Shown in pieces: positions 20,447 through 28,961 of a stretch of DNA of 34,287 nt; position 1 is the first letter of the stretch; every line of letters starts with the position of its first letter. The stretch comes from Acidobacteriota bacterium (GTDB taxonomy: Bacteria > Acidobacteriota > Blastocatellia > Pyrinomonadales > Pyrinomonadaceae): the NCBI GenBank assembly GCA_021323895.1, contig JAJPKD010000032.1, forward strand, positions 1 through 34,287, read 5' to 3'. The translations under genes were made by a program, and so were the position numbers. Below the pieces are notes generated by a model that saw nothing but the letters and a program-made list of their open reading frames with translations, ran no database searches and had not been told where the DNA came from.

Positions 20447-23400
20447 CTACCCGTCAGTCTTAATTTGCAGCAACACGCGACGAGCCACTGCCAGCACTTC
20501 GTCCTTTTCTTCGTCACTCAGCGCGAGCCGCAGAACGCCGCTCGGTGCGAAGCTCGCGCCTTCGCGAGCACTAATCAATTCCATCAATTTGTCAGGCGAA
20601 ACACGAGCTTTTTCTGTCAATTTGATCGCGATGCCGTCGCGGATCCGGTCAATTGAAATAACGCCAACTTCCTCGGCCGCTTGCCGTAGCCGCGCATAAT
20701 CGAACAGGTCTTCCACAGGTTCTGGAATGCGTCCGTAGCGATCTTCAGTTTCGGCAGCAATCGCCGCGAGTGCCTCTTCGTCTCGCGCCGATGAGACGCG
20801 TTTGTAAGTCCGCAGCCGCTGGCCCATGTCTGAGATGTAGCTTTCCGGAATTGCGACATCGACAGCGAGATTGATCGAGACCGACGTTTCGTCTTCGACC
20901 TGTCCCCCACGCAGCTCGGCCACGGTGCGCTCGAGCATCTGCGTGTAAAGATCAAAACCGAGCGCATCCATGTGCCCGGACTGTTGGCCGCCCAGCAGGT
21001 TACCCGCGCCACGCAACTCCAAGTCGAGCGCGGCGATCCTTAATCCCGCACCCAAATCCGAAAACTCTCTGATGGCTGCCAGCCGGCGTCGCGCTATTGG
21101 CGTCAATTCCTGCGCTGCCGGAATCAGCAAGTAAGCGTAAGCCCTGCGGTTTGAACGGCCCACGCGGCCGCGCAATTGATAAAGTTGAGAAAGACCGTAA
21201 TTATCAGCGCGATTTATGATGATCGTGTTCGCACGGGGGATGTCTATGCCGTTCTCGATAATCGTAGTTGCGACCAGCACGTCGTACTTGTAATCAATGA
21301 AATCCAGCATGACGCGCTCCATCTCTTTCTCGTTCATCTTGCCGTGGCCTACGGCGATGCGCGCCTGCGGAACGAGCCGCTTCACCAGCGCGGCGATCGT
21401 CTCGATCGACTCGACGCGATTGTGAATGAAGAAGACCTGGCCGCCGCGCGCCAGTTCAAGTTCGATCGCGGACTTGATCACCGCGTCTGACGACTGCACG
21501 ACTTGAGTTTGAATCGCGAGTCGATCGCTCGGCGGAGTTTCGATCAGAGACATGTCGCGCAATCCGCTGAGCGACATGTTCAGCGTGCGCGGAATGGGCG
21601 TGGCGGACAGCGTCAGCACATCGACGCGCTTCTTCAATTGCTTTAGGCGCTCTTTGTGCGCGACTCCGAAACGTTGTTCTTCATCGACAACAACCAAACC
21701 AAGATCTTTAAAGCTCACGTCTTTCGAAAGCATGCGATGCGTGCCGATCACCACATCGATTTCGCCGGCTTCAACCTTCTTAACCACTTCCTTCTGTTCC
21801 TTGGTTGATCGAAAACGTGAGAGCAATTCAATCTTCACTGGGAACGGCGCGAAGCGCTGGCGGAAAGTTTCAAAGTGCTGGTACGCGAGCACCGTCGTTG
21901 GCGTCAGCACCGCCGCCTGCTTGCCGTCCATCACGGCTTTGAATGCGGCGCGCATCGCAACTTCGGTCTTGCCGTATCCGACGTCGCCGCACAACAAGCG
22001 ATCCATGGGTGTCGGCGTCTGCATGTCCGTCTTGACGTCTTCGATGGCAGTTTCCTGGTCGGGCGTCAGCGTGTATTCAAATCCTTCTTCGAACTCGCGC
22101 TGCCACGGCGCGTCCTGCGGAAACGCATGGCCCGGCACCAGTTTGCGCTCGGCGTACAGACGTAAAAGTTCATCAGCCATATCGCGCATTGCGCGCTTCG
22201 CCTTCGCCTTGGTCTTTTGCCAGCCGATTCCACCAAGTTTGTCGAGCGTCGGCTGATGACCTTCGGCGCTCGAATATCGCTGCACGAGATCGAGTCGCTC
22301 AACCGGAACATAAAGCTTCGCGTCATCAGCGTAATACAGCAGCATGAACTCGCCGCGCGGCTGTGGCGTAAGCTTCAGCTTGTCCGCGGGTTCGGTTGGT
22401 CCAAGATCGAGACTAACCAGCCCGCCGAACCGAGCTATGCCGTGATCGATGTGCACGACGTAGTCATCAATTTTCAGATCGCGAAAATCTGAAAGGAACG
22501 CCGCGGCGCGCGCTCGTCGCTTCTTCTCACGCTTGATTGCGGTCGAACGACGTTCGAGTGCGGGCTCGGCAGCTTCATCGAACAGATCGCCCTCGACATG
22601 AACAACTAGATGGGTACGCATGCCTCCGGCATGCTCTTGCACGCCAGAGGCGTGCGTACCAATTAACTCGAACCCGCCGGAGAGTTTTCCAAAAGTAACT
22701 ACCGCATCGACTGCGGGAGATTCTGAAGTGTCTTCGAATGAAGTAAGGCGCGCGTTGACTTCGTACTCGCGCAGGATCTCTGTGACGCGCTCAGCCACAC
22801 CGCGGCTCGGCATCACGAAAAGCGTGGTGGCATTCGCGTTTGCGTAACGGGTGATCACATCGCGCGCAAGATCCGGCAGGCGTCCGTGATAACGCATGAC
22901 GGATTGGGCGGTCCAGTTGATCTCGGTGTCAGTACCGCGAGCCATAACGAGCGGATCATGTGATCCGACCGGGCTATTTGATCCCGTCGCTACCACCACC
23001 CCACCCGGGCTGCCCGCGTGGGGACCCCGGTCTGCTCCGGGTTCTGACACGAACAGAAACAGCGGCTGCTTCTTCGCGCGCGCCTTGCCCACGGAAATCT
23101 TCGGCTGCTCCGCGTCGAGCGCAATTTCCTGATCGATTTTCGCGGCCGTGCGACCGAGCGCGCGCATCTCGATCCGTTGCCGCCGATCGATTTCTGCGCG
23201 CAATTCTTCAGCCGTCAGATATAGTTCTTCGGGACGCAACCCCAGATCATCCGCCGCATCTGTTTCCGCGAATCGGTCTTCGAGAGTCTGATACGCAGAC
23301 GAAAGAAAATTCTCGACCGCCACCGGTTCGTCGATGACCAGCACCGCTTCCTTCAGATAATCGAAGATGCTCGAGCGGCTTTCATGAATGATTGAAATCA

Positions 23401-24256
23401 GCCATTCCCAGCCCGCAAAGTCTTCTCCTTCGTCGGCGAACACGGTGCGGTCGCGCAACGATCGCGTGAACCTCTCATCTCGCCAATGCATGCGCGCGTA
23501 CGCAGCCCACTCGCGAAAATCGCGCGCGGTCACGATTAATTCGCGCATCGGTGGGATTTCGATCGTTGTCAGTTGAGTCGTTGAAAGCTGCGTCTCCGGA
23601 TCGAATTCGCGTATCGACTCGACCGTGTCGCCGAAGAACTCGATGCGCACCGGCGCTTCATGCCCGGGAGGCCAGACATCGATGATGCCGCCGCGGATCG
23701 ATAGCTCGCCGACAGCGCCGACGGGATCTTCGCGCACGTATCCGCCCGCGATTAATCGCTCGACTAGTTCTTCCGGAGAATGATCTTCGTCGCGGCGCAG
23801 GACCGCGCCGGCCTGCAAAATCTCGGACGCCGATACGGTTCGCCGCGCCAACGCGCGCGACGTCAGCAGCAGGAAGTCATTCGGCTGGCGCGCCAGCCGC
23901 CAGAGCGCCAGCGCCCGCCGCTCGAGAGTTTCCGTGCGCGGCGATCCGCCGGCGTACGGATCAGTTTCAGACGCCGGCAACACAGCGACTGCATCGCCGC
24001 AATCATCGACGCCACGTACCGCGCAGTACCAGAACGCGAGATCGCGCTCCCAGCTTTCGAGGTCTCGTTGCGCCGGGACGACCAGCGCGAACTGCTTTCC
24101 GGTCTCATGCTGCAGGGCTGCCAGGGCCAGCGCACGCGCCGGCCCGGCCACCAGTCCGCTGATTGAAATCACGCGCGCGCCGCGCCGAATCTGATCGAGC
24201 ACACCCCGAAACTCCGCGCTCTCGTTCACAGATTGCAGCGTTGCCTGGATTCCCAA
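20447..24256 (-). CDS. mfd: Transcription-repair coupling factor (Mfd) with two repeat-derived insertions
   Basis: Mfd removes RNA polymerase stalled at DNA lesions and recruits UvrA. The order is: UvrB-like N-terminal module (LPASETDPYAGGSPR, GAVGELSIRGGIIDVWPPG); RNA polymerase-interaction domain (DYVVHIDHGIARFGGLVSLD); RecG-like motor with Walker A LLCGDVGYGKTEVAMR near residue 757, DEEQRFG near 857 and TLSATPIPRTL; then QLRGRVGRSNRRAYAYLL and the TRCF C-terminal domain. At up to 1269 residues it is longer than the usual 1150 or so. Part of the excess comes from an insert at about residues 403-444, coded by a dispersed repeat, and a palindrome at about 533-548. The track start is TTG 24256. 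The GTG at 24227-24229 overlaps the TGA of the upstream ATPase gene (GTGA) and is a good alternative, giving 1260 residues. Confidence 0.95.
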   Translation of the reverse strand: MGIQATLQSVNESAEFRGVLDQIRRGARVISISGLVAGPARALALAALQHETGKQFALVVPAQRDLESWERDLAFWYCAVRGVDDCGDAVAVLPASETDPYAGGSPRTETLERRALALWRLARQPNDFLLLTSRALARRTVSASEILQAGAVLRRDEDHSPEELVERLIAGGYVREDPVGAVGELSIRGGIIDVWPPGHEAPVRIEFFGDTVESIREFDPETQLSTTQLTTIEIPPMRELIVTARDFREWAAYARMHWRDERFTRSLRDRTVFADEGEDFAGWEWLISIIHESRSSIFDYLKEAVLVIDEPVAVENFLSSAYQTLEDRFAETDAADDLGLRPEELYLTAEELRAEIDRRQRIEMRALGRTAAKIDQEIALDAEQPKISVGKARAKKQPLFLFVSEPGADRGPHAGSPGGVVVATGSNSPVGSHDPLVMARGTDTEINWTAQSVMRYHGRLPDLARDVITRYANANATTLFVMPSRGVAERVTEILREYEVNARLTSFEDTSESPAVDAVVTFGKLSGGFELIGTHASGVQEHAGGMRTHLVVHVEGDLFDEAAEPALERRSTAIKREKKRRARAAAFLSDFRDLKIDDYVVHIDHGIARFGGLVSLDLGPTEPADKLKLTPQPRGEFMLLYYADDAKLYVPVERLDLVQRYSSAEGHQPTLDKLGGIGWQKTKAKAKRAMRDMADELLRLYAERKLVPGHAFPQDAPWQREFEEGFEYTLTPDQETAIEDVKTDMQTPTPMDRLLCGDVGYGKTEVAMRAAFKAVMDGKQAAVLTPTTVLAYQHFETFRQRFAPFPVKIELLSRFRSTKEQKEVVKKVEAGEIDVVIGTHRMLSKDVSFKDLGLVVVDEEQRFGVAHKERLKQLKKRVDVLTLSATPIPRTLNMSLSGLRDMSLIETPPSDRLAIQTQVVQSSDAVIKSAIELELARGGQVFFIHNRVESIETIAALVKRLVPQARIAVGHGKMNEKEMERVMLDFIDYKYDVLVATTIIENGIDIPRANTIIINRADNYGLSQLYQLRGRVGRSNRRAYAYLLIPAAQELTPIARRRLAAIREFSDLGAGLRIAALDLELRGAGNLLGGQQSGHMDALGFDLYTQMLERTVAELRGGQVEDETSVSINLAVDVAIPESYISDMGQRLRTYKRVSSARDEEALAAIAAETEDRYGRIPEPVEDLFDYARLRQAAEEVGVISIDRIRDGIAIKLTEKARVSPDKLMELISAREGASFAPSGVLRLALSDEEKDEVLAVARRVLLQIKTDG
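22613..22660. repeat. Palindromic repeat embedded in mfd
   Basis: Two 21-nt arms (22613-22633 and 22640-22660) match at 18 of 21 positions as an inverted repeat around a 6-nt loop, CTCTTG; the arms begin GGTACGCATGCC and end GGCGTGCGTACC. Three mismatches are all T/C or G/A changes that keep G-U pairing possible. In the mfd frame it encodes GTHASGVQEHAGGMRTH. The form is that of a REP-type element inside a coding region. Confidence 0.8.
22926..23050. repeat. Dispersed inverted-repeat element (about 125 nt) inserted in mfd
   Basis: The stretch begins GTGTCAGTACCGCGAGC and ends CTCCGGGTTCTGACAC, so its ends are inverted copies (10 of 11 bases). Its left arm matches the arms of the elements at 25561-25683 and 28840-28961. 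It lies wholly within the mfd reading frame and encodes the low-complexity segment PGADRGPHAGSPGGVVVATG followed by SNSPVGSHDPLVMARGTD, which has no counterpart that I know in Mfd proteins. The interior contains a GGATCATGTGATCC palindrome. Confidence 0.8.
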
Positions 24257-25016: not shown

Positions 25017-25490
25017 CTATCGCTCTTGTATTCGCTGAATGATATCGGTGGTAGAGAAGCCTTCCACAAAGGGCAAGCTCACCACGCGGCCGCCTGCGGC
25101 TTCGACTTCTTCGCGGCCATGAATTTGATCGAGGGTGTAGTCGCCGCCTTTCACCAACACATCCGGCAACAACTCGGCGATCAAAGCCCGCGGAGAAAGT
25201 TCATCAAACAGGGTTACGTAATCCACACATTCCAGCGCCGCCAAAATTTCCGCGCGATCATTCTGGTTGGTCAGCGGGCGGCCTGCGCCCTTTATTTCGC
25301 GCGCTGACGCGTCGGAATTGATTGCGACGACCAACGCATCGCCCAGCGCCCGCGCCGCCTGCAAGTAACGCACGTGTCCCACGTGCAGAATGTCGAATAC
25401 GCCATTGGTGAACACGAGTTTCTTCCCCGCACCGCGGAGCCGCGCGCGTTCGGTTGTTAGCTCCTCTCGTGACAGAATTTTTTTGCGCAT
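25017..25490 (-). CDS. rfaE2: D-glycero-beta-D-manno-heptose 1-phosphate adenylyltransferase (RfaE2-type nucleotidyltransferase)
   Basis: A 157-residue cytidylyltransferase-fold enzyme, equivalent to the C-terminal half of E. coli HldE, which makes ADP-heptose for LPS inner core. The nucleotide-binding [20 protein letters not shown] contains the HxGH motif. [20 protein letters not shown] and [14 protein letters not shown] are also family hallmarks. I place the start at ATG 25488-25490 ([11 protein letters not shown]). The ORF-track start at 25592 would translate a dispersed repeat ([13 protein letters not shown]) and is unlikely. No kinase half (RfaE1) is adjacent. It is the first gene of the long minus-strand string leading to mfd. 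Confidence 0.88.
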
Positions 25491-25560
25491 CGGATGGAAA
25501 ACTAAATTGTAAGGGCGCAAATCGTAAACGGCAAAAGGTTGTGACCAGGACTGACTTCGC

Positions 25561-25683
25561 GTCAGTACCGCGAGCGATAGCGAGCGGATCATGGTTCGCG
25601 TCGGTACCGCGAGCGATAGCGAGCGGATCAGGAGGGTCCTTCAAAACTCACTTGATCCCATCGCAATCGCTCCGGGTACTGAC
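25561..25683. repeat. Inverted-repeat element with a duplicated left arm, between rfaE2 and lysS
   Basis: The left arm occurs twice in direct order (25561-25590 GTCAGTACCGCGAGCGAT... and 25600-25629 GTCGGTACCGCGAGCGAT..., about 39 nt apart). A diverged right arm (25654-25683) runs in reverse and ends CGGGTACTGAC. Total length is 123 nt, close to the 122 and 125 nt of the two related elements. It fills most of the divergent leader region shared by rfaE2 and lysS. Confidence 0.8.
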
Positions 25684-25735
25684 AACACACGAGCTTCCTG
25701 ATCCCGCTCGTGGTTCTGTAACTATGCCTTTTGTC

Positions 25736-28839: not shown

Positions 28840-28961
28840 GTGTCAGTACCGCGAGCGATAGCGAGCGGATCAAAGAGACTGTTATCAGTAGCGGTTCTAA
28901 CTAGATGAGGTTTTGGTTGAATCGTCATGTATCCGCTCGCTATCGCTCGCGGTACTGACAC
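28840..28961. repeat. MITE/BIME-like element with perfect 31-bp inverted arms
   Basis: The left arm 28840-28870 (begins GTGTCAGTACCGCGAGCGAT) and the right arm 28931-28961 (ends CGCGGTACTGACAC) are perfect inverted copies over 31 bp and flank a 60-nt centre. Total length is 122 nt. It lies in the 269-nt gap between the NTF2-like gene and the Ycf48-like gene and encodes nothing evident. It is the cleanest copy of the family also seen at 22926 and 25561. No transposase is nearby. Confidence 0.88.

Follow-up and report, generated by a model that had tools for sequence, protein, structure and literature searches.

The question raised by this locus, from a soil acidobacterium (Pyrinomonadaceae, Acidobacteriota), is how a palindromic repeat comes to lie in the reading frame of a repair gene, and what becomes of it there. 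The window, that is, the whole stretch of DNA analysed, is 34,287 nt long; positions 22926-23050 hold a 125-nt stretch with GTGTCAG at its start and CTGACAC at its end, as the initial annotation had described. The same annotation had placed this repeat in the mfd frame, and it was indeed found inside a 1269-aa open reading frame (20447-24256) whose product matches TIGR00580 and the Mfd Pfam domains. The stretch was confirmed as two dispersed arms in inverted orientation, a REPIN as defined by Bertels and Rainey (2011; PMC3116915), in frame in an otherwise intact mfd. The following features are referred to below:

20447-24256, minus strand: mfd, transcription-repair coupling factor (1269 aa, TTG start, frame open through the insert; TIGR00580)
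22926-23050, minus strand: in-frame REPIN, an inverted pair of REP arms coding for residues 403-444 and absent from the linker of other genera
22980-23050, minus strand: long arm of the REPIN, with B-type ends and an inner hairpin; the complete arm is present in relatives
22993-23033, minus strand: inner hairpin of the long arm, the sole copy in this genome (1 match here, 3-19 per relative in six relatives)
22926-22957, plus strand: short A arm of the REPIN (2 mismatches against the A arm)
25559-25685, no strand: intergenic repeat cluster identified by arm matches (A arms 25559-25590 and 25598-25629, inverted B arm 25654-25685)
28840-28961, no strand: intergenic REPIN identified by arm matches (inverted A arms 28840-28871 and 28930-28961), with a single-stranded DNA fold of z -13

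The mfd element consists of the long arm (22980-23050), a 22-nt spacer and the short A arm (22926-22957) in inverted orientation. On the coding strand its translation is VSEPGADRGPHAGSPGGVVVATGSNSPVGSHDPLVMARGTDT (ORF residues 403-444), rich in Gly, Ala, Pro, Ser and Asp; the segment of about 40 residues, rich in Gly, Pro and Ser, that had been proposed before is exactly 42 residues long. The proposed match to intergenic elements nearby was found to hold for the arms of both neighbours and to fail for the rest of the mfd copy, the right half of which is a long arm with the extra inner hairpin (22993-23033). A separate second repeat nested in the REPIN was considered and is not needed, the hairpin belonging to the long-arm form that is standard in relatives. 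The hairpin has 3-19 copies in every one of the genus's six other genomes and a single copy here, in mfd, so the element is a standard long-arm form, otherwise no longer seen in this assembly.

The A arm (GTGTCAGTACCGCGAGCGATAGCGAGCGGATC, 32 nt) has 102 matches at ≤3 mismatches in the 4.4-Mb genome and a reversed control pattern has 0, which excludes chance; 29 matches were obtained in this genome with the sister arm B (CCCGGAGC...GACGGG). In the stretches extracted from this genome, 87 distinct arm clusters were counted, the majority being inverted pairs; about 14 of the 87 lie within supported genes, the copies being mostly extragenic. A degenerate arm pattern matches 34-285 times per genome in all seven members of the genus, and the other genomes of the family have 0-24 matches each. 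Folded as single-stranded DNA, the mfd copy gives a hairpin with z -3.3, the value for 28840-28961 being -13. Within the window, the longest reading of an rfaE-like nucleotidyltransferase ORF (25017-25592) begins within a REP arm, and its true start is probably downstream.

A search for copies inside other genes, over the extracted stretches, returned, besides the arm matches above, at least five more full in-frame REPINs in conserved genes: mutS2 (L100; TIGR01069), an lhr-type helicase gene (L090; partial gene, NF010338 match below cut-off), addB (L080; partial gene, TIGR02773 and PF21445), carB (L073; TIGR01369) and an rlmI-like methyltransferase gene (L017). Three of these insertions are clean with respect to solved homologues: in carB exactly at residue 477 of the E. 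coli large subunit, in the rlmI-like gene between 160 and 172 of 1wxw, and in mutS2 between 287 and 299 of 8qpp. Single arms were found within genes for an RND permease, a GH57 protein, a cysteine desulfurase-like protein, a methyltransferase, a geranylgeranyl reductase-like protein (two arms), a PIG-L protein (N-terminal) and a weakly matching DNA polymerase IV/ImuB-like protein. The ORFs that run through repeats at L010, L021, L097, L113, L115 and L117 lack Pfam support and were discarded as spurious.

In the relatives, G004 carries a REPIN at the same rlmI site (L017/L046; two genomes, same position), the lhr-type gene has one site shared by G001 and G002 (L043/L048) that differs from the site in this genome, a xanthine dehydrogenase-like gene (named by eye) has one site in G002 and G004 (L041/L289), and a prmA-like gene of G003 (also named by eye) holds a REPIN. 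Among the shared-position REPINs of the rlmI-like, lhr-type and xanthine dehydrogenase-like genes, arm types differ in some, and the shared positions may reflect either inheritance or repeated insertion.

The presence of mfd, mutS2, addB and the lhr-type helicase gene on this list suggests an alternative in which REPINs were targeted to repair genes, or selected there, for altering repair, for example mutability. Repair and recombination genes make up 4 of the 6 full-REPIN hosts in this genome, the same tendency has been reported (PMC3733652), and unrelated REP families occupy the mfd linker in other genera (see below). However, carB, rlmI-like, prmA-like, xanthine dehydrogenase-like and other genes also carry REPINs; the sample from G002, which was limited to perfect arm matches and so favours young, non-coding copies, shows no repair bias; and long multidomain proteins have more linkers, the numbers moreover being small. 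Targeting or selection of this kind is considered rather unlikely.

The reading frame of the in-gene copies bears on their translation. On either strand, two frames of each arm are open. All of the 12 in-gene REPINs measured start at a codon boundary and have a GTG..CAC length of 2 mod 3, giving VSxPxA...DPxA...TDT, those cases in relatives that came from a one-frame protein search being biased to that frame. The seven found by DNA pattern or given at the outset (mfd, mutS2, lhr, addB, carB, rlmI-like and the G002 xanthine dehydrogenase-like gene) all agree in frame; the alternative open frame would encode a hydrophobic stretch. The in-gene lengths predict a mobile unit with a net size of GTG..CAC plus 1 nt, modulo 3. 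Among intergenic pairs, the three length classes are about equally represented (14/14/13). Because the in-gene REPINs share one frame and the intergenic pairs show no preferred length class, the view is favoured that in-gene copies would be translated and filtered at the protein level. Absence of the insert from the protein, by RNA removal after transcription or by ribosome bypassing, could be imagined for an insert that forms a GC-rich hairpin, but its length keeps the frame, no expanded mfd linker contains a stop codon, and a single frame in all in-gene REPINs is not required by skipping; this possibility is very improbable.

The mfd site was compared across relatives by counting the residues between the bracketing FLF and YHG motifs (two extra matches in other genera were pattern artefacts). 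The linker so defined has 18-19 residues in 56 genomes of other genera. Within the genus it has 19 (G005), 25 (G001), 26 (G003), 43 (G004), 53 (window) and 70 (G006) residues; mfd was also searched for in G002, with no match. The alignment with close relatives that had been suggested includes an empty site in G005, with PHADDKSEE only, and a related B-A REPIN of 86 nt at the same place in mfd of G004 (QHXI01000058.1). About 14 nt present in G005 are missing from G004, and the exact empty-site footprint in mfd is blurred. A short perfect palindrome lies in the linker of G001 (GCGCAAGTTCACAACTTGCGC; L128) and another in that of G003 (GGCGGGCAACGCCCGCC; L129). The G006 linker starts with GTGTCAG and has several GC-rich hairpins, including that of the long arm. 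In a tree of the C-terminal part of Mfd the genus is united (100/100) and the inner forks, except G003+G005, are unsupported; one event or two for the window and G004 copies are both compatible with this tree.

On this comparison the mfd segment is an insertion. The initial annotation had named conservation of the segment in Mfd proteins of distant relatives as the mark of an old linker; it was found to be absent from other genera, where the linker is constant. An old, ordinary linker that merely resembles the repeat could draw on the variability of the region within the family, but it is contradicted by the 18-19 residues held constant in the 56 genomes and by REP arms that are near-consensus at the DNA level, and is hardly credible.

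The host gene gives every sign of being functional. Its product scores 1028 bits against NCBIfam TIGR00580 (cut-off 800), with the Pfam domains UvrB_inter, CarD_TRCF_RID, DEAD, Helicase_C and TRCF located on both sides of the insert. By the Nei-Gojobori method, dN and dS with respect to G004 are 0.071 and 1.23 over the 400 codons before the insert and 0.060 and 1.05 over the 811 codons after it, dS being near saturation, so that the low dN is the informative figure; dN/dS ratios with respect to G005 and G006 are similarly low. The earlier statement that a conserved repair gene stays open is borne out by dN far below dS on either side, which indicates purifying selection on Mfd on both sides of the insert and a host gene that is working. 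Decay of mfd, or an artefact of a MAG of 322 contigs in which repeats can mis-join contigs, is extremely unlikely given a single open frame, two conserved halves with low dN and the occurrence of a related REPIN at this position in a separate assembly (G004, QHXI01000058.1).

An AlphaFold2 model of residues 1-726 (33 sequences, mean pLDDT 80.8) was matched by Foldseek to solved Mfd structures. Residues 404-440 have pLDDT <50 and lie between a helix (369-383) and a strand (444-451). The alignment to E. coli Mfd ends at residue 341 and resumes at 455, which places the insert just after the N-terminal UvrB-like module, where it had been expected, and before the RID. The natural reading of the model is a disordered, exposed linker. 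Given its predicted disorder and the purifying selection on Mfd to either side, the insert is most likely translated and tolerated, and its effect on Mfd may be close to neutral.

A candidate for the mobilising enzyme is encoded on contig C88: a protein of 171 aa that matches PF01797 (Y1, IS200-like) above cut-off. Its gene is preceded by three direct A arms and followed by several arms. Homologues were found in G001, G002, G005 and G006 at 39-67% identity, and in G003 only as a short fragment (47%); most of the homologue genes in relatives are bracketed by the same kind of arms. In four aligned proteins Asn-His-x-His and a downstream Tyr are invariant. Further PF01797 matches occur on G000:C6 (split across two frames) and on C216. 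The C88 gene and its flanking arms have the REPtron layout of REPIN/RAYT systems (PMC3116915, PMC8266576). Since about 100 arm copies occur together with a Y1 transposase gene flanked by the same arms, the mfd element is most likely a RAYT-mobilised REPIN, and the C88 protein would be the enzyme that moved it.

Taken together, the mfd segment is very probably a RAYT-spread REPIN that was inserted in frame and is translated and tolerated as a disordered linker. Such an element would be a mobile hairpin built of two REP arms in inverted orientation; being non-autonomous, it would be spread by a REP-associated Y1 (HUH) transposase that the host encodes. It would have entered mfd within the genus, at the point where the N-terminal UvrB-like module joins the domain that follows; with arms that are stop-free in some frames and the frame kept, it could be read through as a 42-residue disordered loop at a place where Mfd tolerates length. 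That most copies are intergenic may be due to the removal by selection of most other in-gene insertions.

The same linker has also been expanded by other repeats. In G039, which belongs to another genus, it holds four tandem in-frame units of 111 nt (37 aa), each including a copy of G039's own repeat, CTCCCT(A/G)GCGGTCGCGTTTCTGCC (83 matches genome-wide); the units (L238, G039:C12:402600-404100, about 403012-403368) lie slightly N-terminal of the insert position in the window. A related repeat has 6 matches in the genome of G086, with one copy in the same mfd linker. Upstream of PLFLFP, the mfd linkers of G035 and G056 (L237, L226) include segments composed of short direct repeats, for example CCGAAATCCGAAATC, a different kind of repeat-derived expansion. 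In G086 that genome's REP was also seen in frame (G086:C29:12409, L340) after the N-terminal segment of an apparent 2-oxoglutarate dehydrogenase E1 (by eye). The Mfd linker as a whole is a recurrent landing or retention place, and it is proposed that several repeat families have expanded it because it is permissive. A bolder version, in which the inter-domain linker of Mfd acts as a genuine hot spot in Pyrinomonadaceae, with RAYT-type elements preferentially entering or persisting there, in repair proteins above all, and with mobile palindromes continually supplying linkers that tune transcription-coupled repair, is regarded as unlikely.

In-gene REPs outside Rickettsia have been published already. 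Di Nocera et al. (2013; PMC3733652) described REPs and REP dimers in genes of many non-rickettsial bacteria, often repair genes, encoding 20-82 residues; linkers were proposed as tolerant sites, and two Xanthomonas recB genes carry a REP at about the same site in two species. Table 1 of that paper gives no RAYT for the CGTC/RPE class, and Mfd is absent from its main text. Both studies have palindromic pairs inside coding genes and prominent repair genes; the phyla and repeat families differ, and the present case adds insert-free relatives and the repeated expansion of one linker. With REPIN/RAYT systems (PMC3116915) the present family shares the inverted REP pair as a unit, high copy number, a mostly intergenic location and clusters beside a Y1 transposase gene. 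It differs in its arm, GTGTCAG...GGATC, which lacks the end GTAG tag of classic REPs (an internal GTAG occurs in C-type arms and is absent from the A type), in the long-arm form with an extra hairpin, and in its several in-gene copies. A literature search returned no description of this REPIN family.

The Rickettsia RPE, which the initial annotation had cited for coding insertion, remain a valid parallel, being palindromic elements that have entered many conserved genes in frame and are translated there; they are an analogue only, the hosts here being free-living Acidobacteriota and the elements RAYT-associated, and REPIN/RAYT is the closer kind. To call such insertion uncommon elsewhere was too strong in view of PMC3733652 and at least five more cases here. 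The present family is a well-documented further case of a known kind, and an unusually clear one of a single linker used repeatedly.

The in-frame spread of RAYT-associated palindromes is thereby extended to free-living Acidobacteriota, with an empty-site comparison over >50 genomes. One repair protein is available as a natural series with 0, +6, +7, +24, +34 and +51 residues in one linker, in which neutrality or effect is directly testable. The series shows how repeated additions of protein sequence at a single site can arise from a mobile element with arms that are stop-free in some of their frames.
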